22,657 nt of DNA, taken from contig NW_003150760.1 of NCBI RefSeq assembly GCF_000003605.2, positions 77,208-99,864 of the forward strand, in the 5' to 3' direction. A program made the translations under genes and the position numbers. The notes beneath the pieces were generated by a model that was not told where the DNA came from, searched no databases, and saw nothing but the letters and a program-made list of their open reading frames with translations. Positions 3,791-21,852 of this stretch are shown here, in pieces. How positions within the stretch are numbered: the first letter of the stretch is position 1; every line of letters begins with the position of its first letter. The stretch is from Saccoglossus kowalevskii (taxonomy: Eukaryota; Hemichordata; Enteropneusta; Harrimaniidae).

Positions 3791-3916
3791 ATGTTCTTCT
3801 TACAGGAAGACATAGGAAAGCATAATTACAGGAACCTGGGGCACCAACGAAAAAGCTTTGGATAAGCAAAGATGCAGGCAAGATAATTTGGAAATATGCG
3901 TGAATTTGAAAGATTT

Positions 3917-3986
3917 GCGAAAGCTCCTACTTCCCAAAAAACAGATATTTGAGAAAGTTTCTACTTCCCAGAAACAGTTGTATCTG
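3917..3986. repeat. Two-copy tandem duplication, about 35 bp
   Basis: GCGAAAGCTCCTACTTCCCA (3917 onward) followed by AAAAACAGATATTT is repeated at once as GAGAAAGTTTCTACTTCCCA followed by GAAACAGTTGTAT. The copies differ at a few positions. It lies just outside the 30-bp minisatellite. Confidence 0.7.
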
Positions 3987-4197
3987 CAACAAATGACTTT
4001 CGATAACCTTGAAAACTAAATAGACTAATAAACATATCATAACACAGTAAAATATATTAATAAATCCAATCTCCAAACGCAAGCCGTTGCCATTTCAACT
4101 GAAAACAAATCCATACTTATACTGAGTCTAAATTAATTTTGCGATAGAAATATGTACACCTAATGTAATATACCAATATGTACATAGGTATAGCACA

Positions 4198-4204
4198 TAT
4201 ATAA
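4198..4204 (+). promoter_or_regulatory. TATA-like box (TATATAA)
   Basis: TATATAA sits 36-42 bases upstream of an ATG at 4240 that has A at -3 and G at +4. A start about 30 bases downstream would leave a leader of only about 12 bases, so it could serve a very short-leader transcript or be chance in AT-rich DNA. Confidence 0.2.
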
Positions 4205-4223
4205 CTAGAAGATCAATTTTCAG

Positions 4224-4371
4224 CAAGAACACTCTGAAAATGGCTGCCGAAATCTCATTTTTAAAGCAAGAGAGCAGCGAGAAGTCTCGTTATGCTGTGG
4301 AGAGTACAGGAAAAACAAGTCACGTGACTGTCTCGCTCCCAACGAGATCTTGGCGACCATTTGCGATTACG
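4224..4371 (+). CDS. Candidate cysteine-rich internal exon
   Basis: An acceptor-like site (GATCAATTTTCAG, ending 4223) is followed by a frame open for 63 codons to a TAA at 4413. A possible donor (GATTACG then GTATAT) lies at 4371/4372, leaving one base of the last codon. The peptide starts QEHSENGC, then has a CC pair (LCCGEY), RDCLAPNEI and TICDYG. Five cysteines in about 45 residues suggest a disulphide-bonded extracellular segment, but spacing matches no family I can name. A second frame (ATG 4240 to 4431, 63 codons, beginning MAAEISFLKQ) is open over the same bases and has a good initiation context. At most one is likely real. No other part of this gene was identified with confidence. 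Confidence 0.25.
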
Positions 4372-4431
4372 GTATATCGATATCTAGCTATGCCATCTAT
4401 GTGTCTGAATACTAATGCTATTTATAGATAA

Positions 4432-6486
4432 CATGTATCTAAGTCATCGGTGGGCACAACAACGGTTAAATTTGCTTATTAGTATACAATAAATAATATC
4501 TACTATAAAATACTTTATTTGCGCTTTGAATTCATTTTTACTGAGGAGATGGTTCAGTGAGCATAAAATGCATCGAATATAATTTTGTTCTATACTCTAT
4601 ATTCAACTCATAAAAAATCAGTAAAAATAAATTCCATACAAAACACCAACAAGCCTTTTCGGTGAAAAGTAATTCCAGCTAAAATCACGGTATTTTACAG
4701 TATTGGTCTATGTGTTCTTATGAAGTGAAAGTTGAACATCAAATACTTTAATTTTATGTACTGCACTTTACATTTTTAGTAATTGACACGGAAAAAACGT
4801 ATAGTGTGTGATAGGCCAAGAATGTTACGGAGGAGAATACAAAAGGCTTCTTGTAAAAACGAAATGCAGACGTGAAGTGGTGCTTGACATAACCATGATG
4901 TAATTGTGCAAATATAACTATGCAGTAATTAACCTTAGTTTACTTTTTTCAAAATGTTAAACCAACTAAAAAAGTATGCATTGTTGACCCACAAGGAGAA
5001 GATAGGGGTGTTTAGAAACCGACACGTGACATGCTGGAATGGGACCCCTTGTTCCAATCGCACCACTCATGGCGGTAGTACAGTCTGAACATTATGATCA
5101 AAACTAAAATTAAATATGAAAAAATTGTTTTTCTCTAAAAAAACTCATCACTTATACATGTAACTTATATTTTATCCATGAAGCGAGGAACATTGATTGC
5201 ATTTGCAATTTGACCCTAAAATAAAATGTCCCAGTTACTAGTAAAGTTTGCCGTTAGAAAACAATTAGCATAAAGGTTGTCGCTACTTGCTGAACTTGAT
5301 TAGTGTGTTTGATCAATGTGTACGTGTTTTTTCTGTTTATATAGTGGACCTAGAACAGGTGAAGTAACCCGGATGGCCATCGGACATTCCGAGCACGAAG
5401 GACAATTAGAAACATTTAAAAGTACAATTTTATTTCAATATAATTTTATAATCGTAATTGATAAACCACGATCTCGTTCAAGTTGTAATAACACGATATT
5501 TGTGACGGGGTCTCACAATAACACGACTTGTTTCTTCTAACATGTTCCCAATGGGCTCACAAATTTAAGTCGAACAGCGATACGAAACAATTCTATGTTT
5601 CTGCTGACACTTTATTTTGCAAATTGAGTGACATGAATTAATTAAATAACCATGAAAAAGTAGGTTTTACATTTCTCGAATTTGCATACTCACTGGGATG
5701 TGTATTAAGGTAACATACTATTGACTATGACATTGGACATTTACTTGCTTTAGGTATCCAACACACTAGAGAGAATGCGCCTTATTGACGCTATCGACAC
5801 ACCCTGTTTACCCACGGAGCACCGCGTTCTAATAACGCGTAATTGTTTTGAATCACGTGGAACGTGAAGTGATCGCGTGTGAATTTAGGACCAGAGACTC
5901 TTACAGCGATCGACAGCCCGCACAACAAGCGCACTTTGCAGCAAGATCTTAATTCCTTAACAAAGAAAACACTTGTAACTCTAGCTCGACCACACTTTGA
6001 AAAAACTCGCTAAGGCGACAGTCCCGCGATAGGGGGATTGTGTTTAAAGCTTTGGGTTTTGTAGAAAGAAAAAAAACACACAGAAAAGACAGAATCCTAC
6101 CGTGATTGTATCGAGTAAATTAAATGTATTGTACCGAATGTCTGCTTATTGTTACACGGGATTTACGCTGACCACCACGCTCGGATGACTCTGTTGTAAT
6201 ACCAACATCTGCCACCGCTTGGAACACTGTCTTTCCTATCTCCGTTTCCGCTGTCTAATTATTCCAATTATTTTGGTTATCTTAAAAAAACGCCTGTTTA
6301 AGTATTTGGCCATGACCGCACCATTTACTTTTACTTGGTTACTAATGCAAGAAATTAGCGTATTTCGAAAATGTTTTTTTCTTCTTAATCTCCCAGACCG
6401 TTAATTGGACGGAATAATTTGTAAAACGGATGAAAGCTACCAGAGAGTGTTTCTCTTTGGTGAAACAAACGGGTGAAAGACTTTAA
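4432..6486. other. Non-coding stretch, no gene supported
   Basis: AT-rich sequence. The strongest splice-like signal is a + strand acceptor at about 5345 (GTTTTTTCTGTTTATATAG) with a frame after it that stays open for about 70 codons (begins GPRTGEVTRMAIGHSEHEGQ). It lacks a clear donor, poly(A) signal or recognisable motif. Two copies of AATAACACGA flank a small GTGAC/GTCTCAC hairpin at about 5488-5525. I see nothing else. Confidence 0.45.
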
Positions 6487-6852
6487 TCAGTTACCTGAAT
6501 GATGGCGTGCTCGCATTGCATCATGGGGGTTTGGGGTACGACCGTCTCGGTGTTTTTCGAAAGTGTAAATCAACAAAATTTCAAACAACGCAGTATTAGC
6601 TTTTGGATAATGGCTCACTACTGTGACTTCAATATTTGAAACGGCCGTCTCATACGGAGTGAAACCGTGACGATTATAGCAAAAAATAATAGTTGAAATA
6701 CTGAACATTGCCCTTGAAAACAATCTATTGGTTCCTGTAATTATCAGACGCCATTTCATTTGAGATATCAAGTTGCAATAGGGAAGTAAATACATCGTCC
6801 AGGCGTGGCATACTCGATATACTTCAACCACAGACCTTGGGCTTGCAATGGT
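6487..6852 (-). other. Open frame ending in a strong splice donor; faint ankyrin-like motifs
   Basis: The frame is open on the minus strand from just after a TAA at about 6853 down to a stop at 6487. It has no ATG near its start, so it would be an internal exon rather than a complete gene. A consensus donor (CATTCAG then GTAACT) lies at 6495/6494, just before the stop. Upstream of it the peptide contains NRHGFTPYETAVSN and, about 41 residues later, RDGRTPNPHDAMRARHHSG. These resemble the start of ankyrin repeats (DGxTPLHxAaxxGH), but key leucines are missing and the spacing exceeds the usual 33 residues. The acceptor is unresolved: ATTACAG at about 6744 and TTTTCAAG at about 6722 are options. 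It may equally be chance. Confidence 0.2.
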
Positions 6853-6899
6853 TTACCTGAACGTGCCTAATGATATAACTTAGAGTATGCGATTCCATT

Positions 6900-7179
6900 T
6901 ATTGGCTATTCACCATAAACCAGGTGGATGTGTGGATTATACACCAAGAATATATGTTAGGTACAGTGTACATGTGATGGAGTGATTGCAAGCAATTACT
7001 GCGATTCTCAGTCGGCTTTGCAAGTAGACGACGCTCCTTGCATGTCTTAGTTCGTGGCCAGACCTTTTGTCCATTGCATATGATGAGATAAAATAAAATA
7101 AACACAATAAAAGATGTACAGTACAAAAATATTCAATGTATTTACTAGTACCTTGGGAACATATCTCCGGAAAAGTAGA
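6900..7179. other. No gene supported
   Basis: A minus-strand frame (6899-7126) contains a basic stretch (VWPRTKTCKERRLLAKPTEN) downstream of an ACAAAAG acceptor-like site that has no adjacent pyrimidine tract. I do not consider it supported. Confidence 0.3.
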
Positions 7180-7185
7180 TTTATT
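7180..7185 (-). terminator. Candidate poly(A) signal AATAAA
   Basis: AATAAA on the minus strand lies about 185 bases downstream of the candidate stop at 7369-7371. That is a plausible 3' UTR length for the tentative membrane-protein gene above it. It is immediately preceded on that strand by a run of 13 C. Confidence 0.25.
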
Positions 7186-7198
7186 GGGGGGGGGGGGG
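7186..7198. repeat. Homopolymer run of 13 G
   Basis: Thirteen uninterrupted G residues on the + strand, one of two long G runs in the window. It could form a G-rich structure but has only one run at this position. Confidence 0.95.
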
Positions 7199-7368
7199 CT
7201 TCACAGACAACGTAACATTCTGCATGTAACATTCAATTTGAAAAAAAAAATATTTATAAAGGAACCCACGCACATTTGATAGAGCGAGGAAAATAAATTA
7301 ACATCATCGTGAAAATAAATAGCTCTGAGTGAAACTGAAGAAGAAAATAATTTGCACACAGTTTTCTG

Positions 7369-7413
7369 TCATTTCCGTTCTCCTTCCAAAGTTCGAATGG
7401 TCCAACCCAGGCC
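7369..7413 (-). CDS. Candidate terminal exon of a membrane-protein gene
   Basis: A good acceptor (AGTTGTTTTCAG, ending 7414) precedes 14 codons and a TGA. Read in phase 0, as the previous candidate exon requires, it encodes GLGWTIRTLEGERK then stop. The match of phase and the AATAAA downstream at 7180-7185 are the only support. A different downstream exon could be the true partner. Confidence 0.2.
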   Translation of the reverse strand, partial: GLGWTIRTLEGERK

Positions 7414-7523
7414 CTGAAAACAACTCTATTTTGAAAACATATAAACACGTGTGTGGCATCGCCAATTACCGAGAGTCCACAATAGGTATTATCGCGGGAG
7501 ACTAGGATAGGAAAGTGACTTAC

Positions 7524-7553
7524 TTCATCATAAAGGAATTCTAAATTTGAACT
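7524..7553 (-). CDS. Candidate 30-base micro-exon (SSNLEFLYDE)
   Basis: This 30-base block lies between a pyrimidine-rich acceptor (TTAATTAACTCCGATTAG) and a perfect GTAAGT donor. It is open in phase 0-0 and encodes SSNLEFLYDE. The phase matches the upstream candidate exon at 7766-7850, which ends on a complete codon. The acidic, tyrosine-containing peptide would suit a cytoplasmic tail. Micro-exons are hard to establish from sequence alone. Confidence 0.3.
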
Positions 7554-7765
7554 CTAATCGGAGTTAATTAAAAATAAATATACATTTTGCAAGAAAATAG
7601 GTGATAAACGAAATGTAAGGAAAATCATATGATATGTGCTTACGATTCTTTCTGTGAAATTAAACTAGCACAGCGAATAAAATATAACGTACTCGCAATA
7701 TCTGGCCCCAGCTAACCTGATCCATCCACCGGTAATACCGCAAATTCACCGGAACAAACACTTAC

Positions 7766-7850
7766 CGAGTGGATATCCCTACATGACCTTGTGTCGTGAT
7801 GTATAGACACGTCATCCGGTAAATAGGTGTGTTTTAAGTCGCCCCTTAAA
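7766..7850 (-). CDS. Candidate cytoplasmic-tail exon
   Basis: An acceptor (GAGCGTTTTGTTAG) and a consensus donor (CACTCG then GTAAGT) bound an 85-base block. Its first base completes the split codon CG|T left by the candidate exon at 8551-8668; the other 84 bases are 28 open codons. The peptide reads LRGDLKHTYLPDDVSIHH, then DTRSCRDIHS. It is polar and charged, as expected for an intracellular tail after a membrane span. No family is recognised. The main support is the consistent reading-frame phase across three consecutive candidate exons. Confidence 0.33.
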
Positions 7851-8550
7851 CTAACAAAACGCTCAGCGGATACATTGAATTACCACGCACCAACATAATT
7901 TCCACTTTTTAATTAGACACATCATAAAAGCGGAATTCTGAATTAGTATGCATGTCGAGTGCATGCATAGAATAGTCTTTGAAGTTAAACTCATTGTCGG
8001 TGGTGTTTGAGAAACTTCCACACGAGTTGAAACGTTTTGGTGTACTTTTCATTAGATGTTTGTCCGAGGAATCCGATTTGAGGTGATTAAGGATATGTGA
8101 GACGGTCTAACGAAGAAACAGAAGCGACGTATATATTGATGGGCTGTGTGAATGGTTTGGTAACGCGCGAGTCGCCAGTAGCGTAACCCATGAGTCGTAG
8201 TACGATGTTTTATGGGAATGTCTTTATTTATGTCACATGACGTAAAATGTGAAACAAATACACTCCCCGCATTCCCACCCGAGATTAATTATTTCCACCA
8301 ACTTAGGAGGTTCAATGCTATCAATCACCCCAGCACGGTTCAGGATATCAGACATTTCTTGTTTGTACGGTGTGTTGCAATTTACAATAAACTACTGCAC
8401 TAAAATAGCACTCTATTCACAAGCAACAAAAAATAAGACGTATAGTCGCCTCCCTTTTAACAACGAACCAAAACATGAAATGTACAAGCGGTGAAACTAA
8501 TAGCAGTTGTCGGTTACAGTCGGTGCCAATGCATAATGAAATGGACCTAC
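7851..8550 (-). other. Candidate intron; nothing else seen
   Basis: This stretch would be the intron between the candidate exons at 8551-8668 and 7766-7850: GTAGGT at its 5' end and TTTTGTTAG at its 3' end on the minus strand. Plus-strand frames at 8212-8403 and 8249-8494 overlap one another in different frames and have no recognisable content. Confidence 0.25.
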
Positions 8551-8668
8551 CGGGGACGCTCAACTTTATCGTCATTCCCAGACTTGAATTGAATTCCTCG
8601 CTTGCCTTTCAAGCACGCCTTGCATTTGTATGCAAGTGCCAATAGCATCACGCATAGCAGGGTAATTA
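8551..8668 (-). CDS. Candidate exon: end of a transmembrane helix and basic juxtamembrane region
   Basis: The 118-base block follows a pyrimidine-rich acceptor (CTATTTCTTTCCAAG) and ends at a donor (CCCCG then GTAGGT). Read with one base from a preceding exon, it encodes a hydrophobic run (VITLLCVMLLALAY). A cysteine/lysine-rich boundary follows (KCKACLKGKRG), then a polar tail (IQFKSGNDDKVERP). Hydrophobic residues followed by positive charges is the classic stop-transfer pattern of a type I membrane protein with its C-terminus inside. The hydrophobic part is only about 14 residues, so the rest of the span should lie in the previous exon, which I did not identify. Base composition is more GC-rich than the flanks. 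No family is recognised. It could be a decayed or chance frame. Confidence 0.35.
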
Positions 8669-8914
8669 CTTGGAAAGAAATAGTCGAATATGCGGGATTT
8701 TTGTAGATTAATAGATTGTAATGTATTATCATTTTTTTCAAAAATGTGATGTGCTTTTTTTATGTTCAAAAGTTCCATATTTATTTCCGAGTATCCTGTA
8801 GTGTACTGTGATTAGCGCCACGGTGCATGTGGACGCAGCTTAACGCGCAACTTGGGGTGATTTTTGATGTATGAACCTGACAATACACCATTTGCGGGTT
8901 TCTGCGTCACGTGG

Positions 8915-9210
8915 TATCCTCGGGGGCGGAGCTACGTCACAAGACGTTCCACGTTGCTAAAACGCGCACCACGTATTTCTATGGGCTCTGCGCGCGCTGC
9001 CGAGAAACAACAGGAACTCAACTTTGAAGTAATCCTGAACAATCAAATTTATATGTGTTACACACGCAGTGGTAATTTTGTTATCCTGTTTAGGAGAAGG
9101 AGAGTCTCAACAACTATCCCAAAGTACCGTTCTCTGAGAGTGTTCGGCCTTTGTTTTCACCGTGATGGTTGCCATGCGGTGAAAATGCCCGGATGTCCGC
9201 TCCGAGAATA
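8915..9210 (+). mobile_element. Inverted-repeat element, copy A (complete, about 296 bp)
   Basis: The left end TATCCTCGGGGGCGGA (8915-8930) is mirrored by TCCGCTCCGAGAATA (9196-9210). The interior from about 9010 is shared with copy B (9455 onward) and copy C (12193 onward), including CAACAACTATCCCAAAG and GTGATGGTTGCCATGCGGTG. No transposase is present, so it would be a non-autonomous, MITE-like element. A clear target-site duplication was not found and the superfamily is unknown. The 135-codon frame at 8864-9271 runs through it and is probably not a gene. Confidence 0.7.
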
Positions 9211-9439
9211 CGCCACACTTACACGCCATTATATCGTCCTTGTTCTTAGTACTATTAGTTGGTTGTTATAATACAACTAAGAAAATCCTTCAGGTATTCA
9301 TTCAATATTAATCCAAGCGTTTTCAAGCAAACGTTAAACTTGAACGTGAACTCATGGAAAAGTACAGTCGCCTCGTACAAACTGGAGTAAAATATGAATC
9401 GTTGAGGGCGCTGGCATGGAACTTCTGGACGAAGAGCTG

Positions 9440-9657
9440 TGAAAATAGCTAAATTCAAGAAAACAGCACAAATCAACTTTGAAGTAACCTTGAACAACCA
9501 AATTGATATATGTTGCACATGCATGGACAACCTTCTCACATTATTCAGGGGAGTCTCAACAACTATTCCAAAGCACCATTTTCTGAAAGTTTTGGTCTTT
9601 GTTTTCACCGTGATGGTTGCCAGGCGATGAAAATGCTCGGATGTCCGCCCGAGGGTA
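9440..9657 (+). mobile_element. Inverted-repeat element, copy B (left end missing or diverged)
   Basis: Aligned to copy A in the same orientation from ATCAACTTTGAAGTAACC (about 9472) to TCCGCCCGAGGGTA (9644-9657). Only the right terminus is recognisable. The peptide similarity between the plus frames of A and B (NFEVILNNQI against NFEVTLNNQI) follows from DNA similarity and does not by itself show coding. Confidence 0.65.
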
Positions 9658-9660
9658 GAG

Positions 9661-9942
9661 GTTTTACGAGGTACAGATAACTAGTGTTTTTCAGCTTATT
9701 TAATTATTCTAAAATAATACCTACCTAATACCTTAGTTAAGCGCCAGGGTGTGAAATGTTTTTGTTCACGTACAAAGACTGCTTGCTCTATACTAGCCAC
9801 GTTACACGACCTCGGCTTGCTCTTATGGATAATAATTATTTGAGGGAAATAAATTAAGTATAATTATAATCTGAATCGTGTTCAGTTTGATCAATATCAT
9901 AACGCTACCAGGCCACCGTAACATACAAGTACATGTACTCAC
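9661..9942. other. No gene or element recognised
   Basis: AT-rich sequence between element copy B and the candidate exon at 9943. Nothing seen. Confidence 0.4.
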
Positions 9943-10094
9943 GTTTCAACTCTGCCGTGAATTTGCCGCGACATGAGGGCGCACTTTAATCTGTGCTGGG
10001 CATTTATGAACAGGGTCAGCATTACACAGGTTTTGGTGATAGACAAATGTTTGTTGGAAGGCCTAGTGCTGAGCTGACATAGTCTTATTTTGAT
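9943..10094 (-). CDS. Candidate exon of unknown gene
   Basis: A 152-base block lies between an acceptor (GTGTTAATTACAG) and a consensus donor (GAAAC then GTGAGT). It is open throughout in phase 0, ending with two bases of a split codon. The peptide begins IKIRLCQLSTRPSNKHLSIT and ends with MSRQIHGRVE. It resembles nothing I know. Its end phase does not fit the candidate exon at 8668 directly, so if both belong to one gene another exon must lie between them. Confidence 0.22.
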
Positions 10095-11450
10095 CTGTAA
10101 TTAACACTGTGTTAAAGACTTTCTTTCGTGTTTATGCAGAAAAGTACAATATTTTTACGCAGTAAAATCATATTTGTCAAAGTTATTTTCAACATGAGTT
10201 GTTGAACACATTACATAGTTTGTAATTCATTCATTTTTTCAGTCATAATTCAAGACAAATAAAAGGTAAAAATATAGAGAATATAGTAAATTATCTTTTT
10301 CTGTAATCTTGTGTAATCGGTAATTATGAAAATTATTTATGGGTGCAGAGAGAATACGTTTCGTTATGAATTATTCTTAATATAAATTTTTGAATTATCT
10401 TGTCAAAATCAGATTTTTAATTTTTTTTCCGCTAAAAAACGAAAGAATTTCACAATGTTGAAAACGGAACTCTTTATGGTAATGTTAATTGTACAATTCT
10501 CTCTTTAAATATATATATCCGCGATTGTGCAGAGCTACATTAAATATTAAACACAAGTCTAGTTCTCTATGATCAACATGTGAACACCGTCTCGGTTAGT
10601 TGAATTCAGCCTCCTCGCTTTTATAATGCCTCAAATCAACCGATTGAGGGCGCAATCATAGAACAACATCGGCTTTCTAGGAAGAGGGGTTAGGGATGGA
10701 GGAGTAGCTGGCACAAGATACAGAAAAATAAATAAACAGCATTTGACATTGTTGCTGAAAATAAAGAGCAAGTCCAATTGTACAGTATATAGCATGTTTA
10801 CAAATATAAAATAACCTTAATGTTCATAAAAATATAAGGTGAGTGATTTGTTTGCTCGTTCTCAAATATTTGTGAACTATTTTTGTTCAAAATCATTTTT
10901 ACTTATAAAAGCGCTACAAAAGGTCATAGCATATTTTTTTGTCTATTTATAACTCTCATTGAGAAAAAAGGTTAGATTATTATTTTTAAATTGTTTATCC
11001 TATTTTCGAATTGACTCTTTTCATTGTTAGTGTTGCTTTCACAATCTTCTGATATAATTATGATTGACTTGTAATTCATCAAGAGACAAGGAACCATCAG
11101 TCACTGACATGAATTATTTGTTTCCCTCTCAGTTCCAAAATATATCATATATATAAGTTATTTTTTCATAGGGTTTCTTTCGATAATTGTTTGATATCAT
11201 GTATTATCTACCAGTGTCTTTTAATAGAGTTGCCCCCTGGATGATTGATATCTAACCCAAAGCTCCTTCCCAGGCTACAACTATAAGACAAAAATTTCAT
11301 GATTTGAATTTGAACTCAATAGTATTATCGAAATGCCTATCTGGCATTGAGATTCGCTCACTTCATCAAAATTGATCATCATCAAATGTTCATGGCACAT
11401 TAATAAGTATGGAAATACTTCCAAAATACTTGTGTGTTTGCAAACAAATT
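10095..11450. other. Non-coding AT-rich stretch, nothing recognised
   Basis: Very AT-rich, with no open frame of note on either strand. A + strand GTGAGT donor-like site at about 10839 has no convincing exon before it. Confidence 0.55.
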
Positions 11451-11561
11451 GTAGAATTTATTTATTTATTAAGTGTCAGTGTGACTGATAGGGGTTTGAA
11501 CTGCGGTTTGGACTGCGGCTGCGGGCGACCAAGCTAAGCCACTTCAACCAGTATATTCTAC
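11451..11561 (-). mobile_element. tRNA-derived SINE-like unit
   Basis: On the minus strand, TGGCTTAGCTTGG (11529-11541) matches an RNA polymerase III A box. About 40 bases later GTTCAAACCCC (11491-11501) matches a B box. The spacing is close to that in tRNA genes. The unit ends in TTAATAAATAAATAAATT, a simple tail typical of SINEs. It is not an intact tRNA: the acceptor stem does not pair and there is no clear anticodon arm. The unit is bracketed by GTAGAAT (11451) and ATTCTAC (11555-11561), which is an inverted rather than a direct repeat. No target-site duplication was identified. Confidence 0.55.
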
Positions 11562-12187
11562 GTAAGCAATCGCACTGTAAAAATGCTTCGCACAGGAAAC
11601 CCGTGTAAAATGAAAAACTTTAAACAGAGATGGGTCCTAAAATTTTAATGAAACAATCATCTTTTATCTTTAAATTTGCCAGAATCATGGTTGATTATCT
11701 AAGCATGTCCATTATCCGGCTTACATAAGTTGCCATAGTAACAGAGGAATACCACATGTAATCACGTGTCTCATATAAGTGTAAGAGACAAGTTGCGAAG
11801 CAGAAAATTATTTTCCAGCTACCGTATTACATTTACTAAATGTACGTTGAACAGTTTATGTCACTTGAACACTAAATTGTAGTAGGAAATGATGAGACAA
11901 ATTTGTAGAAAATAAAATTATAGCAACAGCCGTGCAGTCGTTATATGGTGTTATAATTTAGCGATATAACAGATCTATATATAACCCAAACCCATATTTG
12001 CATGCAACATTATTTTATATAAATTCATAAATTCTACTACTGTGAATATATATTTGCATCGCTTCAAGTTCAATAAAGCACAAAATACTACACCACCAAT
12101 AAAAAATATGAATTTTAATTAAAACAATCCAAATTTTATTTGCACCACTTGTAAATCATCTTTAAAACACTGTACCTCTCAAAATTA
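11562..12187. other. Non-coding stretch, nothing recognised
   Basis: AT-rich, no long frame on either strand, no repeat unit that I could match elsewhere in the window. Confidence 0.5.
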
Positions 12188-12297
12188 CTACACAACAATT
12201 ATCCCAAAGTACCGTTTTCTGCGAGTTTTTGGATTTTGTTTTTCACCGCGATGGTTGCCAGGCGGTGAAAATGCCCGGATGTCCGCCCCCGAGGATA
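12188..12297 (+). mobile_element. Inverted-repeat element, copy C (right end only)
   Basis: Shares CAACAATTATCCCAAAGTACC and following bases with copies A and B. It ends with TCCGCCCCCGAGGATA (12282-12297), the exact reverse complement of the 16-base left end of copy A. Near the terminus, TTTTCACCG (12240-12248) and CGGTGAAAA (12263-12271) form a perfect 9-base stem with a 14-base loop, a feature also present in copy A. Confidence 0.68.
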
Positions 12298-12906
12298 GAA
12301 TGAAAAAAAACCTATACAATCTATATTTATTAGTTGTCTGAGAAGAAAAAAAACAAAAACGCAACAGATCATCATAAACAGAAGGTCCGGCAACCATAGT
12401 TTCATTTACCATAACGACCATTTCAAATTCAAGCAAAGCAGATATATATATACAGGATATACAGGAGTATTTTCTAGATGCTGACTAGAGTATGATCACT
12501 GAGTTGATATCCGGCTTTCATTCTTTGGTCTTAACATCCCGGTAAGAGGCGCTCTTTCAAAACGCTATATTTACACCAGGGATTTGGTTTCTTAGATTGC
12601 CTGACAAGGTCTCAACATTGAAATGATGCTCATAAACGTTTTTGAATTTTTAGATGTGTACCCTGGGATTCAATGATGCTAATATTGTTGGGTACCATGT
12701 TACTTACACGTCATGCACAATGCACAAAAACTGTTCGACGTGAAGTTTGATTGTGGGAGAGAGGAATTCATGTATCAGGTGCGTAGGGAAAGGGGAGGCA
12801 GAACATTAAAAGGGGTTGCAAATTCACTAAATGGGAGGATAAGTTCTGAAATGAGTGAGGGAGGATACAAGCATATTTCAAGGTGACCTAATTTATTTGG
12901 ACGACT
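12298..12906. other. No gene supported
   Basis: Minus-strand frames at 12188-12436 and 12199-12405 overlap copy C in two frames and are not credible. Nothing else seen. Confidence 0.45.
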
Positions 12907-12955
12907 TTAAAGGGCAATGGTTGTCGCGCTGCGCATGTGCGACATTTGTGTTTTA
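12907..12955 (+). mobile_element. TTAAAGGG-type element end
   Basis: TTAAAGGGCAATGGTTGTCG then CGCTGCGCATGTGCGACATTTGTGT. It is similar to the reverse complement of 17130-17206 (CAAAGGGAAGTGATTGTTGC, then GCCACGCATGCGCAAG). This suggests one terminus of a TTAA-targeting non-autonomous transposon. The partner end is not certain. Confidence 0.4.
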
Positions 12956-13127
12956 AACATTGATTTTCCCAACAATCCAATGCGCTCTTCTAATAGAAAT
13001 CACAAGTACGAGTTTTGACCTGGGTGCGACTCACACTAATAACCGCCGATGACTCCTGCGATACCTCTCAATAACCAAACTACTTAAAGCTTGGTAACCT
13101 CACAGATTGTACTCGTTGGCCTGCCCA

Positions 13128-13200
13128 AAGTCAAGGTCGCCATCTTTGTTTATATGAGACCCATATCTATCGCATGGGGAAACCATATTTTCCAACGTGA
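13128..13200 (-). mobile_element. GATGGCGAC-type repeat end
   Basis: On the minus strand CATGCGATAGATATGGGTCT then CATATAAACAAAGATGGCGACCTTG aligns over about 45 bases with the minus strand of 17130-17175 (CATGCGCAAGATTAGTGTCC then CATACGAACAAAGATGGCGACTTTG). It is probably an end of the same repeat family. The 72-codon minus frame at 13150-13368 runs into it. Confidence 0.45.
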
Positions 13201-13719
13201 CGCCATATTAGGATCATCGCCCATGCACGTAAAAATTACCCCGTTTCGTTGAACTGGAAGGTCACTATACTTGACAGTAACATTATCGGAAATACGCGTG
13301 TGCAGTCGTAAATTCGCCGAAATAGGAAGACTTAGCTGTTGGGCAGGACTTTGGACCCGTGATAACACGTGACATGAACGGAATTTACAGCATATGCTAT
13401 AAAATCGTTATTCCCAACCAATCACTAAACCTTTGTCACTGTAATCAACACAAAATGATAGCCGAGTTCTGATAACCCCGGAATGTGGCGCAAACTAATG
13501 TCATTACAGCTTTAATGTGTCAATGTGTCACGTGTTGTTCAGTCTGGGTCCCATGCGTCATCACATGTAAAATATTAGTTTCTACGAATTTCGATCATGA
13601 GTACGACGCGTGTTTGTCAAGTTCATGACTAATATATTTTCTCAGTATCTGATTAATATACCTATACGATATTCATTATTCATAATAAAAGTATGTTGTT
13701 TCAATCGGTGAGGGTTGTC

Positions 13720-14283
13720 ACGTGCCTGGGTGGTTTGAACCAAATCACGACTTTGACTGTGGCACATCGCTGTGATCGATTATTGAATTTTTTTTTAGAA
13801 ATGGTTGGAAAGCTGAGTTGCCTGCACGTTTGGGAATTTCACACGCCCTGTGTTCAGCCCGATGAATTTGAACCAGGTCACTAATCTTGGCAGATTCTGT
13901 AACAATCTTGGTATAACCACCACCGGCGTTATCGTTATACCCATAAAATACCAAACACCCGGTTTTTATGATGTTAAAAAAGACATCCAGACTTTTATTT
14001 CATATTGTTTCTGAGCGCTCCCAGACATTACATAAATCACTTTTACCAGGTGACGATGTCATCGTTCATAATATCCGAGGATGAGGCACACAGACACAGA
14101 GACGATGTCTTGCCGACAAAGTCGACTCGGTCGTATAATATCTCATCCGGTAAATACACTTGGTTACAAGTACTTCGCTGCATAGTTCGCACAGCAGAGT
14201 TCGCCATACATGTATGTGTACGCCATACTCTGTGGCTTCGACACTTATCACTGGCGTGGTGTTTGCTTTAGTCGGATAACCAC
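13720..14283 (-). pseudogene. Decayed paralogue of the 20338-21666 methyltransferase-like gene (C-terminal 40%)
   Basis: Reading the minus strand and changing frame at breaks, this stretch aligns continuously with about residues 258-439 of the intact 442-residue protein. Matching pieces include TPVISV (for LPVIVQ), MANSAVRTMQRST (for MADTILRNFQRRT), VYLPDEILYDRVDF (for VYVLDQVAYDCIDF), the TSSLCLCASSSDI region, LVKVIYVMSGSAQ (for LVKVVSAMAGSGQ) and VVIWFKPP (for VVILLKPT). In the best 50-residue stretch about half the residues are identical by my count. Frames break near 14220, near 14049, near 13996 (with a TGA) and in a run of T at about 13789-13797. It is collinear and intron-less, like the intact copy. 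The upstream limit falls at a 14-G run. I infer a duplicate that lost its N-terminal part, including the glycine-rich cofactor loop, or whose N-terminus has diverged beyond recognition. Confidence 0.9.
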
Positions 14284-14285
14284 GT

Positions 14286-14299
14286 GGGGGGGGGGGGGG
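14286..14299. repeat. Homopolymer run of 14 G
   Basis: Fourteen uninterrupted G residues just at the 5' limit of the pseudogene homology. It may mark a duplication or deletion breakpoint (inference). Confidence 0.95.
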
Positions 14300-14420
14300 A
14301 AACGTGTATGGTATGTAATTAGTGATACTGTGTGGATATAAATAGATCTGAATGTATGGTGTTAGCGCTAGAGCATTGTTTGCCGATCTGACCCAAAATA
14401 ACGAACGGCAAATATGTGTG

Positions 14421-14524
14421 TACTGTGAAGGGATTAATTATTCACTGGGTTTTAATTTTGCCCATTTCGCTGACTGGAAAATGCGCGAAATTTAAACCCA
14501 GTGAAAATTAGTCATTTTACAGTA
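14421..14524. mobile_element. 104-bp palindromic MITE-like element, TACTGTRAA ends
   Basis: The left arm TACTGTGAAGGGATTAATTA then TTCACTGGGTTTTAATTT is mirrored by the right arm, whose reverse complement reads TACTGTAAAATGACTAATTT then TCACTGGGTTTAAATTTCGCGC. Arms of about 40 bases surround a short centre (CATTTCGCTGACTGGAAAATG), so the whole element is a near-perfect hairpin. A second family member is at 18200-18411. No coding capacity. Confidence 0.8.
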
Positions 14525-15188
14525 TTTTTAGTGTCTTTGGCCTGACGCAGTCAGAGAGCTACCATATTTGTCAAACACCCCGGGTAATGTCAGTTTGCTT
14601 CTTTGTCTTCATTTAATATGTAGGTTGCATTTACTTGTCAATGGAGTATCGAACGAATACGAAGATGGCGACTTTCATTTTATTACGGAAACGGCGTCTC
14701 CCTGGACGGAAATGATGACCGAGGATACGGAAATGGCGTGATATCAGTTGAAAGCATCATATTGTAGTTGAAAACTATACTATTTGTATATTTACATACA
14801 TTAGCTTTGATGTAACTCCTTGCAACATGCCTTATTAGAATCATTTGTCTGTACTTTTATATGCCAACCTGTTATTACAATTGGAAATTAACCACACAAA
14901 TATATGGAACAACATAACATATATTTTATGCTATTGAAATATATTATAAACTAAATATAGTCTGTGTTTTATTTTATCTATGTATGATGTTCTTATTATA
15001 AATCAACTCCGTTTTTATACTAAATAGAATGTTCTCCATATCCTTTCATGAAGCGTTATTTGTATACATCATGCATTGTCCATGTTTGATTTATGATAAG
15101 AAAATGCGAACTTTTCACCTAAAACAATACACTATAATCTATGTCTATACTAGCACGAGTGTGCTTACTTTATTTTTTTTTGTCCCAG
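14525..15188. other. Non-coding stretch with one repeat fragment
   Basis: Contains ATACGAAGATGGCGACTTTC (about 14656-14675), matching the GATGGCGAC repeat ends at 13137 and 17130 in opposite orientation. A + strand ATG frame beginning 15029 continues into the candidate exon at 15189, but its first half looks like pyrimidine-rich intron. Nothing else seen. Confidence 0.4.
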
Positions 15189-15412
15189 AAGTATGCCGGT
15201 CAGGTCACGTCACTATAAACATGACCACTTCATACGTAGACAAATACTTGACCTCCGGTCGCGATATTTATAATCGTTGTCATACTTCGGAAGTGGTGAA
15301 TAATTATCATCATGATAATACTGTTTCAAATACAAATGTTGAAACTTGTGCTAAATACGTAATCCTAAACTACATCAACAGTAACATCATCATCCCCTAT
15401 ATTACTGTATGA
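15189..15412 (+). CDS. Candidate terminal exon of unknown gene
   Basis: A very strong acceptor (CTTTATTTTTTTTTGTCCCAG, ending 15188) is followed by two bases of a split codon and 74 codons, the last being the TGA stop at 15410-15412. The peptide starts VCRSGHVTINMTTSYVDKYL and contains HTSEVVNNYHHDNTVSNTNV. It has three cysteines and several N-x-S/T sequons, so an extracellular location is possible. No family is recognised. The same bases also hold an imperfect inverted repeat (GAAGTATGCCGGTCAGGTCA against TGACCTCCGGTCGCG...CATACTTC), so it could be a mobile-element remnant. No AATAAA occurs close downstream. Confidence 0.25.
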
Positions 15413-17127
15413 TTTGAAAGTATTTTCAGTGGCCAGACTATTATATTAGATAAAAACCGCTTTTCAAGCTGCCCGATATTCATAAGCGTGAACTATATAT
15501 AGCAAAAAAGAAAGACCAGTCAAATCGACAACGGTCATATGACTATAACCCTGGTTAATCTGGCTAGATCTTGCTCGAACATCTATATAGACTTATAATT
15601 ATTTCGACCACGGTCACGTAACTTAATTACACCCAATATATTGTGACCATCGCTAAATCCTGATGTGCATGAATATAAAATAGAATCTCATTCCATAATT
15701 ACGTCTTATTTGAAATAATGAAATGGTTTAGGTGTGTATACGTTCGAAATATACCGATAAGATCCAACATAGACTTTATATAAATTGTCAGTTATTATTG
15801 CTCGATTGAAAAAAGAATACGCAGAAGACTGAAATATTTCACGTTCGGTTAAAACATTGCCTATCTACGAGCCAGTGTCATTGTGAGCGTTATTCAATGG
15901 CCGCCATGTTTACGCCTCTTGTAAGATTTGGTGAACTCTAGATCATACAACTTACGCGGACGTAATTGTTTTCTATGGAGAATTTCAGAGACGACGTACA
16001 TAAAAGACAACCTGCCCATAATGGCACCCCTTTTGGCACTCCCAGAGTGTAATTTTTTTGAGAAATTGTTGTCATTCGATAGTAGCTCGTAAATATTCAA
16101 CCTCACATTTCAAGTAGCTTCAGTGGTCTTTGCACGCAGGTTTGACTGCGTACGTCAGTGTTAACCGTAGTGGACGTCATCACCCATAAAAGCTGAAAGT
16201 CCAACAAATAAAACAGATGGTACGTGTAATATTGGTATTCGCTCTAGATCTGTCACCTCCGTTATTTCAAATCCGTTTTCTTTTTGTTCACTCACAAATC
16301 GTAGATTTGGTTCAGAATATGTATTCTGGTACATATTCCATAACACAAATCGAAAATGTTGTCCCTTTTAACATATCTTTTTCCAAAACGAGGGAATTAC
16401 ATTCGTGCCTATGTGATCAATTGGTGAACATAATTAAAGTTTGGTGTCTTCTATAATAATGCAGTTATATTCATGCTGATTTGTAAAATCATTCATGTGT
16501 TTATGTCGGCTCACACAGACTGACGCACTAACTCTTGTCAATACTCTCGATACGTTTTTATCATTTTTTTTGGTGATCCAAATAATCAGTTCGAGGAATG
16601 CAACTTTAACACTGTTATTTGTGATAACATGGCGTTCTTCATGAATAGCATGTATTGGCTTCCCGTTAGTTAGCACCGGTTTGTCATACATGTATTTTCG
16701 GACGTCACCGTGTCTCAGCGTATGTAGACTTACTCGTCCGTCTCTAACGTGGATTATTCGCATACACCGTGCATGAATATTATCAGAGGTACATTACTTG
16801 GGGTTTGCAACTACGGTGACATTATACCAAGATCCCGTTTCAATCTCGCTCTCGCATAAGCGTTCCAACTCAGAAAAATGCGAATGCGCATGCCCGAGGT
16901 AACTAGGATACTGAGATGTCCAGGTGGATCAAAATAGCTGCTCACGGGTGACGGATTACGATAACTATATTTTCTGTACATTTTCATTTTCAGCCGATTT
17001 TGAAAACTTCCTTTATAAGTCATACATGAAACTCTGGGGTTTTAGATGGCACAGTTTCAAAAAAATGGCAAAAAAAAAAATGAATCACGACGTGCAATAA
17101 TTAACAACTCTTTTTTTTATTAACACT
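15413..17127. other. No gene firmly supported
   Basis: Two short opposite-strand frames occur at 16217-16456 (+) and 16434-16763 (-). The minus frame starts at an ATG (16763) and meets a perfect GTAAGT after 10-11 codons (MRIIHVRDGR). Its continuation contains HIRDGRV-like polar sequence with no motif I recognise. A minus frame at 16811-17023 begins MTYKGSFQNRLKMKMYRKYS. None has enough support to call. Confidence 0.35.
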
Positions 17128-17206
17128 CAAAGTCGCCATCTTTGTTCGTATGGGACACTAATCTTGCGCATGCGTGGCGCAACAATCACTTCCCTTTGAA
17201 TACCGA
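17128..17206 (-). mobile_element. GATGGCGAC / GCATGCGC repeat end
   Basis: On the minus strand it reads TTCAAAGGGAAGTGATTGTT, GCGCCACGCATGCGCAAGAT and then CATACGAACAAAGATGGCGACTTTG. The first half matches 12907-12955 and the second half matches 13137-13185, so it links those two segments as parts of one family terminus. The adjacent A-rich tract at 17060-17115 may belong to it. Confidence 0.5.
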
Positions 17207-17847
17207 CTTTGTATACTTTACGTCGGCAATAACGGTATTAAATGTCTTTCAATATTTCTGCTTTTTCAGATGTGGAATATATTACTGATGTTATTGAAGA
17301 AAAACCATAGATGAAGTAGGAATGCCTTGATTGGAATAGCTTGATTGGACGACAAAGAATTTACCTGGGCTGAGATTTGTCTCCAAATACTATGGTACCG
17401 AAGATTTTACGATTCCCGAGAATTAGGATGACGTCAGATGCGATTCTGCTGTGGTATGAACTTGAATGTCTTAGGCCGAGGTGATTTCAGCACTCTGTAT
17501 GAACTTGAGGATAAACTTTGGTGAACTTGGTTAGACGGGTCAACAAACTCGTTTATGCATTTCTGTTAGTTTGCATAACATTCCTGTCGCCTTGAGGGTA
17601 TTCTGTTGTATAACAAATGATGTATGACACCTGATGTGGTAGTTTCTCGCAATTCTTTGGTTTCGACCAATTAGGAATGAGCAGGGTAAACACAGTGATG
17701 TCATCTTGATTTACATATGTTTCCCTATAAATTAAACAATAAATCGTGCCCACGACGGTACATAATGGTACAAAGTATCCGTTTATCTATATGAAAATTG
17801 ACACCTGGCGAGTCGTCTTTGGTTTGATTTAATTGTGAGACGAGGTG
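17207..17847. other. Non-coding stretch; one CRE
   Basis: A perfect TGACGTCA lies at 17429-17436. The minus frame at 17553-17753 has no recognisable content. Nothing else seen. Confidence 0.45.
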
Positions 17848-18013
17848 TTAAAGCGGCGGTGTCGTCACCTACGCATGCGTCAGGTCGCTATAAGCTTGTC
17901 ATTGTTTACAAACAAGCGTCTACCCATGAGCCTTTGCGTTCTTAGCGTGTGTTGTTATCATCGCTTGGGACTCAATTCTCGCGCGTGCGCAGGTGACGAC
18001 CCTTCCGCTTTAA
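17848..18013. mobile_element. 166-bp MITE with TTAA at both ends
   Basis: The left end TTAAAGCGGCGGTGTCGTCA then CCTACGCATGCG is mirrored by the right end, reverse complement TTAAAGCGGAAGGGTCGTCA then CCTGCGCACGCG. The inverted repeats are about 34 bases with few mismatches, and TTAA occurs at each boundary. TTAA target duplication is characteristic of piggyBac-type transposons, so I infer a non-autonomous piggyBac-like element. No transposase. The 104-codon frame at 17845-18159 spans it and is an artefact. Confidence 0.72.
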
Positions 18014-18199
18014 TTCCATCTAATTTTGTGAGGTACATTTCTACCCAAGTTTCAGGACCTATGCCAGCTGCTGTAGAGAAGCGTGATTACACAAGCTCCA
18101 CCATGATTATGCTCAAGATAACTAACAGGACACTGAGTAGTAAACATAGGCGACAATAACCACTTGTTTCAGTCCTAAAAATAGAACCATTCTGCGAAA

Positions 18200-18411
18200 T
18201 ACTGTAAAATGACTAATATTCACTGGGTTTAAATTTCACTGATTTATCATTTCAGGCATATTCAGTGGGTTTTAAATTCACGGTTTCATCATTTAGATAA
18301 TGTGTTCTATGCTAAATTTTACATATTCACTGTGTTTTAATTTAGCGCATTTTTCCAGTCAGCGAAATAAGCTAAATTAAAACCCAGTGAATAATTACCC
18401 CCTTTACAGTA
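18200..18411. mobile_element. 212-bp compound TACTGTAAA element
   Basis: The ends are TACTGTAAAATGACTAATAT and, reverse-complemented, TACTGTAAAGGGGGTAATTA. The same CACTGGGTTTTAAATT arm follows each. The right half (about 18318-18411) is a reverse-orientation copy of most of the 14421-14524 element, including CATTTTTCCAGTCAGCGAAAT. Two further CAGTGGGTTTTAAATT/CACTGTGTTTTAATTT copies lie inside. The structure looks like a nested or tandemly expanded family member. Confidence 0.75.
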
Positions 18412-19632
18412 GCCAGCTGCTTGTTATCGATCAATCGAAATACTTCAACTGAAGCCCACCAGATTTGTGTTGAGAGCTACAATCATATAGTGAATCTAAT
18501 CGTAGTGGATCACAGTATTACGTTGCCATTGATTTATTTGAAGATTGGAAATACGGGTAAACATTTACCATTGTTTACTTCAATATTAAGTGAGATTTAT
18601 TATTATTAAAAAGGACATTGGTCCCAAAAGTAAATACACAGAAAATGAGCGCTGTACAAATGGTAGCTTAGCGGCTTCCCCCGAAATATTATCGTGATGA
18701 CATGGTAGACAAACGCAGCAACACGCTGCAAAATCACATCATTGAGTGATGTGAGTAAATCGAGTAATTTGGTTTCAGATGGAGGAGTGAAGAAAAAATG
18801 AAGCATAAATATAGCTCATATACTCTGAAAAATATACAAACCAGCGTAAAGTGATACTCATTTTCCGGTGTGTGGATGTCCGTCGCAGAGCTCACCAGTA
18901 ATGCTGTGTCTTTTAAGATTACCACTGCCTGTCTCAAAACGTAAACAATGAGAGGAACAGCGTAGACGGGCTAATGCCTGGCATGAACATAACCATTAAT
19001 GGTAAAAAATATCTAATTCTAATTTATTTTTAAATTACTTTTACGATATATATCCAGTTTATCCATAATGCTTAATCTCCTAATAAAATTATGTACAATT
19101 TTATCAATATCTCCCTCTCCTTGAGCAAACCATACCTTGTTCATATTACAAAAAAAATTCATTTTAATTTCAGGCGGTTCCAGGCTCTTTAATTTGAACT
19201 AATACGTCACAACACTTTTTAGAGTACCTCGAATTTGACATACATATTAATTTCGCCCAAAATTTGAATGTAAGCAAGATACTGAACTTTCTAGATGCTC
19301 ATTATATATACAAATAACGCAACAAAATGAAAATATATACAGTAAAATATTTTCTTTACCTTTCTGTCTTTGTATTACTATAATATTTGTAGTTTTATTA
19401 CGCTATTGATACGTGTTTGTCTCTAATATTTTGTCATCTTTCCATTAAAATTACGTAAAACTCCACCGTTTTTTCAATCATTCGTCAATTTGGTCAAGGG
19501 GTACCATCATTGAAAATGCAACACAGACTAATTTGTGGCTTGCCATATATTAAAGAAATAGAAAAAAACGACAACAATATATTTTTGTGACAAGATATTA
19601 GACAAGAGCTTAGTCTACCCTAAATGTCACCC
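18412..19632. other. Non-coding stretch, no gene supported
   Basis: A possible 43-base minus-strand mini-exon lies near 18890-18933 (GAGACAG acceptor-like; GCATTACTG then GTGAGC donor; encodes AVVILKDTALLV), but isolated blocks this short carry little weight. The remainder is AT-rich with nothing recognisable. Confidence 0.4.
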
Positions 19633-19680
19633 AAACAGCTTGGCAAACAGCTTGGCAAACAGCTTGGCAAACAGCTTGGC
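19633..19680. repeat. Four perfect tandem copies of AAACAGCTTGGC
   Basis: The 12-bp unit AAACAGCTTGGC is repeated four times without a mismatch. Perfect identity suggests recent expansion. It contains CAGCTT/AGCTTGGC, partly self-complementary across neighbouring units. Confidence 0.97.
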
Positions 19681-19747
19681 TGCGTGACAGCAGCTTCAAA
19701 TGACATTACATATTAAAACACTGTTTCATCAGTTAGTATCGTCTATC

Positions 19748-19753
19748 TTTATT
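19748..19753 (-). terminator. Candidate canonical poly(A) signal AATAAA
   Basis: This is the first AATAAA I find on the minus strand downstream of the methyltransferase-like stop, about 585 bases away. A variant signal, AGTAAA (minus strand, 20162-20167), is nearer at about 170 bases. Which is used cannot be decided here. Confidence 0.25.
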
Positions 19754-20066
19754 TACTGGATTTTTAAGTTCCCCCATTTTCCTTAAATAAAGAAATCCGC
19801 TAAATTTAAAATTAAAGTTACAGGAAATCAGGAAAAACCCTAAACTCATTGAATATGATAAGACAGTCAAAGTAATCCAAAAAGTGAAAATTAACTGTCT
19901 ACTATAATCACATGTACAGAATGGACGCGTAGCTCATGATATATTTAAGCCATATAGTATACATATTATACTAGTATATAAAATCAACTGAAAATACCAT
20001 TACCAGGTAAATACACTTGTTCATATGATGATTCATGTGCTTCGGAGAAAAAGTCACTCATAAAAA

Positions 20067-20095
20067 TGACGTCAGTGCACTCAAAAATGACGTCA
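20067..20095. promoter_or_regulatory. Two perfect CREs 21 bp apart
   Basis: AAAAATGACGTCAGT occurs twice, with TGACGTCA at 20067-20074 and 20088-20095, as part of a 21-bp direct duplication (CACTCA...AAAAATGACGTCAGT). A spacing of 21 bp places both on the same helix face. They lie about 240 bases past the stop codon of the minus-strand gene, so if active they would be a downstream enhancer or a promoter for something else. Confidence 0.4.
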
Positions 20096-20337
20096 GTACC
20101 AGTAATATAATTATTATTACAAAAGCATGTTAGTTATAGTTTTCGAAAATCAGAGAATAATTTTACTCATATTTTGTTAGAAAGTGTTTGACCTACAGAG
20201 ACATACCCCGGGATGGGCAGAACACCGACTAAAGTGGAACATTCGATAAACTCATTAACTAAGGATGAAATAAAAACGAACTGAACTTGACGAAAATCAA
20301 TGACACTGAAACGTCAGCAAAGACTAGAACACAATTT

Positions 20338-21666
20338 TTAGAATTTTGTTGTTGGTTTCAACAAAATCACAACGCTCACTGTGGCACGTAGTTGCGGTCC
20401 GATGTGGAAATATTGTTTGAATGGCTCAAGCATTTGCGCCACACCATAACTGGGTACTTCACATGGCACGTGCTCCGCTCTGTATATCTCAATGAGACCG
20501 CTTCTATTGGCCGCTTCCTTCACGAGCTGTGTGTACGGCCCACCGGAGTTGTCCATATAGAATACTACGCCGCCGCATTTCATTACGTCAAATACAATCT
20601 CCAGCGACTCCACCGTGTCTCGTCTTCTCTGTCCACTTCCAGCCATTGCTGAAACCACTTTCACCAGTGTCACGACGTCGGCGTTCGCTATATCCGAACT
20701 GGTGTTGCATATGCGCAGCAGGGAAGATTTGTCGGCGAAGTCGATGCAGTCGTAAGCAACCTGGTCAAGCACGTACACGTGATTTCCGGTTCGTCGCTGG
20801 AAATTTCGGAGTATTGTATCTGCCATGTTTTTCCACTCAGTGCAGTTGTCCAAGACGGAGGCCTGGACGATCACTGGTAAAGTCTGTGTTATCAACGGGG
20901 ACGAGTGATTCATATAATGCGCCCTCTGTGGTTGTATTGGCGGCGATAAAAGACCCGTCGTTGGTGTACCGGTCTTCCGGTTGCTGTTAGCCTGACTCCC
21001 AAAAACGTAATTGTTTGGCAGCGGTCGACCAAAGTTAAAATTAAAATTCAAGTGTGGTGGAATGTGTCGAATGTTCCATGGACCAGAGTCTCTAGAGGAG
21101 TAATCTAAATGAATACTTCGACATAAAGGTTGTTGCAAACAAATTGGAATGCTAAGCTTCTGTAATATGGAACCATACTGTCTCTGGGCGTGTAGAAAAC
21201 ACAGTAACCCGAGAATATCGGTAGCTGGGCCTCCGCCGACTGCGCACAGACGTATTCGACGAGAAGCGAATAACGCGTCCATGGCACCCCTAAACGCGAC
21301 ACATACGCAGTACGACTCCAGGAAAAAACGTTGCATCATATAGACATGAGAAGTGAAGAATCGATAGAAATACGCTAATCTGTAGATCGGCGAACAGAAT
21401 ATGTTTATACTGGGGTGTGCCTTTAGACCCTCACTAGAATAAGCAGCGAAAATGATTTTCACCGCGTCACCAACCTCGGTGCATAGCCGGTACTGCTTCC
21501 GTGTACGGTTGAGTACATAACCCGTTCTTTGTGTAAGCGGGTCGAACAACAGGTCATAATCAGAAACGCGTGACATCGATTCGTCTGAAACCATTTCCCC
21601 ACAGACTAGAACGTCAAGCGTTTCCTTGCAAAGCGAGAACAGAGACGGAAACGCCGCAACCTCCAT
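20338..21666 (-). CDS. Putative class I SAM-dependent methyltransferase-like protein, 442 aa
   Basis: Single open frame; longest in the window by far. I start it at ATG 21666 (MEVAAFPSLF; A at -3, G at +4). The frame extends 14 codons further up only to a TAG, with no ATG. Residues about 90-130 form an aromatic, helix-like region (CSPIYRLAYFYRFFTSHVYMM). At 142-150 lies AVGGGPATD, preceded by a short strand (RIRLC) and followed by a hydrophobic helix (ILGLLCFL): the shape of motif I, the cofactor-binding loop of Rossmann-fold methyltransferases. A Pro/Asn/Ser-rich insert spans about 195-262. Strand-like segments follow: VIVQASVLD (265-273), ADVVTLVKVVSAM (329-341), GGVVFYMDNSGG (365-376) and VSVVILLKP near the end. 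Substrate is unknown and the family unnamed by me. No signal peptide or clear membrane span, so probably intracellular. It could be a catalytically altered family member. The related pseudogene at 13720-14283 supports a genuine gene family. Confidence 0.85.
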   Translation of the reverse strand: MEVAAFPSLFSLCKETLDVLVCGEMVSDESMSRVSDYDLLFDPLTQRTGYVLNRTRKQYRLCTEVGDAVKIIFAAYSSEGLKAHPSINIFCSPIYRLAYFYRFFTSHVYMMQRFFLESYCVCVAFRGAMDALFASRRIRLCAVGGGPATDILGLLCFLHAQRQYGSILQKLSIPICLQQPLCRSIHLDYSSRDSGPWNIRHIPPHLNFNFNFGRPLPNNYVFGSQANSNRKTGTPTTGLLSPPIQPQRAHYMNHSSPLITQTLPVIVQASVLDNCTEWKNMADTILRNFQRRTGNHVYVLDQVAYDCIDFADKSSLLRICNTSSDIANADVVTLVKVVSAMAGSGQRRRDTVESLEIVFDVMKCGGVVFYMDNSGGPYTQLVKEAANRSGLIEIYRAEHVPCEVPSYGVAQMLEPFKQYFHIGPQLRATVSVVILLKPTTKF

Positions 21667-21694
21667 TATATAGTATAAATGCTGTACTCTTCCC

Positions 21695-21806
21695 CTATCG
21701 AATAACAACTAATTCCATGCCGTAGCGCCTCCAATCTGACGTTCAATCAGGTGTTCTCTGCACCATTAAATAACACAATTGTTGTACAATGCCGAGCGTA
21801 TCCCAT
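21695..21806 (-). promoter_or_regulatory. Three short upstream ORFs in the leader
   Basis: Between the TATA box and the main ATG, three upstream ATG frames open and close: 21806-21747 (19 codons, MGYARHC...), 21766-21743 (7 codons, MVQRTPD) and 21718-21695 (7 codons, MELVVIR). If the leader is unspliced these would limit translation of the main frame. A 5' intron ending at the TACAG near 21682 would remove them. Confidence 0.4.
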
Positions 21807-21843: not shown

Positions 21844-21852
21844 TTTTATATA
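21844..21852 (-). promoter_or_regulatory. TATA box TATATAAAA
   Basis: On the minus strand TATATAAAA is flanked by GC-rich bases (CCGG before, CGG after), a textbook TATA context. It lies about 180 bases upstream of the methyltransferase-like ATG, so transcription would start near 21815-21822. A CACGTG E-box at 21807-21812 sits at or just after the expected start. Confidence 0.5.

Follow-up and report, generated by a model that had tools for sequence, protein, structure and literature searches.

A decayed gene copy in a tandem family of predicted methyltransferase genes of Saccoglossus kowalevskii

What is the short protein-like frame found on the minus strand of a 22,657-nucleotide stretch of the Saccoglossus kowalevskii genome, which alone looks trivial but resembles the end of a much longer open reading frame (ORF A) of the same stretch? 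The stretch, hereafter the window, covers positions 77208-99864 of contig NW_003150760.1 (C4071). A reading of the sequence only had proposed that the short frame belongs to a frameshifted paralogue of ORF A that arose by local duplication and then decayed. The analysis reported here supports most of this proposal. The element, named P1, is best explained as the remnant of a duplicated, once functional member of a tandem family of single-exon genes predicted to encode class I S-adenosylmethionine (SAM)-dependent methyltransferases, a reading to which we assign a probability of roughly 0.9. The features at the centre of the argument are the following:

13731-14275, minus strand: P1, decayed C-terminal half of a class I methyltransferase paralogue, matched to residues 257-438 of ORF A (strands beta-2 to beta-7 of the predicted fold), with frame shifts at four sites
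13745-13954, minus strand: 69-codon open stretch within P1, in register with about residues 367-416 of ORF A (down to 13799), the remainder out of register
20338-21666, minus strand: ORF A, intact single-exon frame of 442 amino acids, predicted class I SAM-dependent methyltransferase (fold assigned via its paralogue B)

P1, a broken C-terminal half-copy related to ORF A

No open frame in the window is longer than the one from 20338 to 21708 on the minus strand, whose 442-codon reading from the ATG at 21666 is ORF A. Frame-aware Smith-Waterman alignment of the encoded protein to P1 (BLOSUM62, gap penalties 11/1, frameshift penalty 10) gave a score of 323 with 83 of 174 aligned residues identical (48%), while 100 shuffled ORF A proteins scored 38.3 on average (standard deviation 4.6) and 57 at most. 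A tblastn search of the window with the same protein found, beyond ORF A itself, a collinear set of four pieces that spans 14207-13731 on the minus strand in three different frames (joint E = 3e-24), and a profile search detected two frames of P1 with E-values of 7.7e-20 and 5.6e-12. The 69-codon frame exists as described in the sequence-only reading and does match the C-terminus of ORF A. That reading had traced the match for some 180 residues through four or more breaks and placed it at 13720-14283, which is right to within about 11 bases. Shifts are located at four sites, near 14223, 14047, 13998 and 13794, and make five events because the third site counts twice; the number of events hinges on the gap penalties and four sites is the firm figure. 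One of the breaks falls within a run of nine A. The aligned codons of the frame-aware alignment contain no stop. A single-frame match to P1 (contig positions 91226-91417) contains one TGA and two TAA because such matches read past a shift.

The first half of the gene was not detected. The N-terminal parts of ORF A and of its two intact paralogues B and C (see below) scored within the range of shuffled sequences in all 12 tests, which covered 14276-20337, 14276-15500 and 1-13730; closest to a signal was C against the plus strand of 1-13730, whose score of 49 was equalled by 2 of 20 shuffles. P1 is what remains of the C-terminal half, and the SAM-binding beta-1 strand with its glycine loop was found neither in P1 nor in the tested stretches of the window. 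As the missing half carries this loop, P1 in its present form is not such an enzyme. Roughly 145 bases past the limit of the P1 homology, at about 14420-14524, is a palindromic element of some 105 bases that has the ends TACTGT/ACAGTA and resembles a miniature inverted-repeat transposable element; relatives of parts of it are found at 18197-18245 and 18323-18411. Our guess is that this element may have contributed when P1 lost its first half.

A cluster of intact paralogues

Searches of the genome assembly (572 Mb in 4830 contigs) with A, B and C returned seven matches each, distributed over the same five loci, all in the minus strand of C4071 (with C as query, one P1 piece reaches just E 0.9):

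91.0-91.4 kb, minus strand: P1
97.5-98.9 kb, minus strand: A
112.3-113.4 kb, minus strand: B, intact single-exon frame of 355 amino acids
117.4-118.7 kb, minus strand: C, intact single-exon frame with a reading of 428 amino acids
188.6-188.8 kb (188458-188778), minus strand: P2, short fragment

ORF A is one of three members of a small tandem cluster of intact paralogues, B and C being about 13 and 18 kb distant. Its earlier description as the only intact gene is true in the window but does not extend to the cluster. The frame of C has 476 codons when started at TTG; the 428-residue reading starts at an ATG that aligns with the one of ORF A. P2 shares 88% DNA identity over 297 nucleotides with the 3′ end of C, the similarity continuing into the C 3′ flank, and has an in-frame stop. 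It represents a second decayed copy, of younger age. N letters make up about half of the 223 kb of contig examined, and five loci is therefore a lower bound.

A single dN/dS ratio (omega) of 0.158 was estimated for A, B and C over 343 codons, and a model in which all three evolve neutrally was worse by 114 log-likelihood (lnL) units. The three genes are under strong purifying selection and are, by that measure, working protein genes. A model with ORF A alone neutral was 5.6 lnL units lower, a difference that is no formal test because its parameter count equals that of the one-omega model. An insert of about 85 residues, within positions 161-263 of A and located between helix A and beta-2, is common to A and C and absent from B. 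Between A and C, omega is 0.055 in the core of this insert (34 codons) and 0.231 over the whole aligned insert (87 codons). Two further features of ORF A are:

20995-21096, minus strand: insert core, residues 191-224 of ORF A (RDSGPWNI...FNFNFGRP...NYVFGS), kept in A and C and absent from B
21844-21852 (contig 99051-99059), minus strand: TATATAAAA, possible TATA box, some 180 bp 5′ of the ATG of ORF A, identified by eye only

The predicted structure of B, of middling confidence, has an alpha/beta fold whose strand order is that of class I SAM-dependent methyltransferases (Foldseek); the model of A was not used for fold searching (mean confidence score, pLDDT, 42). The closest structural relatives are class I SAM-dependent methyltransferases such as histamine N-methyltransferase (2aou, 1jqe), nicotinamide N-methyltransferase (7nbj) and a chain of 8om2, a structure of the small subunit of the yeast mitoribosome that includes METTL17/Rsm22. 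A, B and C all carry a glycine-rich loop after beta-1 and an acidic residue ending beta-2, which we take to be the methyltransferase motifs of this class. The loop of ORF A is GGGPATD (residues 144-150, window 21217-21237) and the acidic residue, D273, is invariant in the three proteins. A glycine of the B and C loop (GGGPGTD) is replaced by alanine in A. Based on the predicted fold, the three genes probably encode methyl-transferring enzymes, presumed to be active. Three intact paralogues, their low omega and this predicted fold bear out the earlier view that the open frame at 20338 represents a conserved protein family.

Origin, age and death of P1

Birth-and-death evolution in tandem gene families produces duplicated pseudogenes. 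P1 shares with such unprocessed pseudogenes the presence of intact and broken copies nearby on one strand, the frame breaks and the truncation, and differs from them in nothing of kind, its parents being single-exon frames. The location of all five loci in one strand of one contig agrees with a paralogue generated by local duplication. Unequal exchange or a segmental duplication would have generated the P1 copy directly from DNA; the copy would have diverged from A while still working, and would then have lost its 5′ half and gathered insertions and deletions.

The same remnant might instead be a retroposed copy, reverse-transcribed from mRNA and inserted with a truncated 5′ end. The usual intron test is unusable here because each of A, B and C is one open frame with no introns to lose; the absence of introns in P1 is thus no argument against retroposition. 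Both P1 and P2 retain the 3′ part of the gene alone, as 5′-truncated retrocopies do. However, retrocopies are dispersed, unlike the five loci found here, and the similarity of P2 to C extends into the 3′ flank of the gene. No A tail follows P1 (after 13731, minus strand) or P2, which for P1 is weak evidence since old tails decay. The long constrained phase of P1 described below is also at odds with a copy dead on arrival. We consider a retroposed origin improbable.

An intact gene misread in sequencing or assembly could be suspected from the break in the run of nine A and from the aligned codons free of stops. The 545 nucleotides of P1 nevertheless contain five shift events, while the 3,675 nucleotides of A, B and C contain none, a distribution with a chance of 3.6e-5 under a uniform rate. 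Furthermore, sequencing error does not explain the missing first half, and of the 68 residues that A, B and C have in common, P1 retains 44 and has replaced 24. That correcting errors would restore an intact gene, the outcome named in the sequence-only reading as able to overturn it, is very improbable. A chance or low-complexity match, suggested by nothing other than the shortness of the single frame, is ruled out by the shuffle control and the profile E-values given above.

The decay of the duplicated copy stands, but probably not as an event that followed duplication at once. The divergence of P1 from A was analysed in a gap-free set of 153 codons, which omits 21 of the 174 aligned ones (19 before residue 281 and two beside the third break). 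First, second and third codon positions have 58, 35 and 88 differences, respectively. The number of synonymous substitutions per site (dS) is about 3.2, a rough value near saturation, and the non-synonymous one (dN) about 0.37. The two proteins share 73 of 153 residues, while 2000 neutral simulations at equal DNA divergence retained 63 at most. A copy decaying from birth would be expected to be younger at silent sites and less conserved in protein sequence than P1. In a codon model of the four sequences, the best position of P1 was beside A, by 4.0 lnL units, and resampling supported A as its partner at 0.87, B at 0.10 and C at 0.02; P1 is probably sister to A. Omega of the P1 branch is 0.17, and fixing it at 1 is worse by 3.4 lnL units (twice the difference, 6.7). 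The divergence of P1 accumulated mostly under protein constraint. Given the near-saturated dS relative to A and this mostly constrained branch, P1 seems to have long remained functional, probably encoding a working protein through most of its history, and to have died late. A two-phase fit of the branch, with a long constrained phase followed by a neutral one, places the best length of the latter at 0.10 substitutions per site. Retention of residues suggests that constraint on P1 is now relaxed. At positions where two intact copies agree, P1 keeps 50 of 81, 53 of 88 and 51 of 86 residues for the three possible pairs, compared to 68 of 81, 68 of 88 and 68 of 86 for the third intact copy.

Several observations tell against this reconstruction or soften it. 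The grouping of P1 with A is not decisive at a support of 0.87. The neutral phase includes zero, its upper limit (1.92 lnL units) lying between 0.27 and 0.33 substitutions per site, and a free omega for the P1 branch (0.17 against 0.13) raises lnL by only 0.1. A long constrained branch could also explain the lower residue retention of P1. The 153 codons have no stop where 1.85 are expected after 0.10 neutral substitutions per site; the probability of finding none is 0.16 for that length and falls to 0.025 for 0.20, so that the absence of stops fits a neutral phase but favours a young death. As to the family itself, Foldseek E-values for B are good, yet TM-scores are only about 0.3-0.4 with a root-mean-square deviation near 11, and further copies may exist in the N segments of the contig.

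Surroundings and standing of the family

Exons similar to histamine N-methyltransferase (HNMT) are found in the plus strand of the same contig between 122.9 and 225 kb (122973-224978; pieces L010, L011, L017, L025, L026 and L027). One of them matches PDB entry 1jqd with an E-value of 1.4e-05, two of the six pieces scanned match Pfam Methyltransf_12, and three exon queries gave 16 matches, including three to themselves. These neighbours are likewise predicted methyltransferases in a local array but differ from A, B and C in having several exons and the opposite orientation. Comparison by hhalign of the A/B/C profile, three sequences deep, with one HNMT-like exon detected no relationship (probability 0.1, E-value 0.74).

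A reverse transcriptase open frame (L012:5419-5979; Pfam RVT_1, E 6e-17) lies about 27 kb from gene C. The window itself contains a minisatellite at 3116-3755, with a 30/60-base unit and about 10.7 copies of the 60-base one, through which frames stay open in both strands with no evidence of a gene. A dispersed repeat is present in three related copies (9005-9206, 9461-9653 and 12193-12299) of 79-88% identity.

Comparison of A, B and C to Pfam, NCBIfam and PHROGs gave nothing below an E-value of 0.01 (best values 0.22, 0.016 and 0.084, respectively). Sequence searches of the PDB found no match (best E 3.2 for A alone and 0.41 for profiles), as did tblastn against phages with E up to 1. Pattern searches returned 5 and 79 matches in viral contigs and 66 in prokaryote genome contigs, none of which was confirmed, and neither Rfam at gathering thresholds nor a tRNA search detected anything. 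No paper on the family was found among the literature matches listed, judged by title and abstract opening. Similar uncharacterised proteins are presumably present in other invertebrates and fungi. We tentatively suggest, while considering it somewhat doubtful, that A, B and C form a family of intronless class I methyltransferases that is undescribed and confined to one locus next to the HNMT-like array; in this family the conserved insert absent from B may be a substrate lid or a docking loop, and P1 and P2 would record a recurrent gain and loss of such enzymes at the locus. "Undescribed" refers here only to a few libraries and the literature searches.

P1 itself is ordinary, a birth-and-death pseudogene in a tandem family. 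It led to three paralogues under purifying selection, which are evidence that the frame at 20338 is a real gene, and this gene belongs to a family that no Pfam model covers. Overall, P1 is a duplicated pseudogene of the usual kind, from a family of predicted methyltransferases that is real but poorly catalogued, and it offers a small example of a paralogue that was seemingly functional long after duplication and died late.
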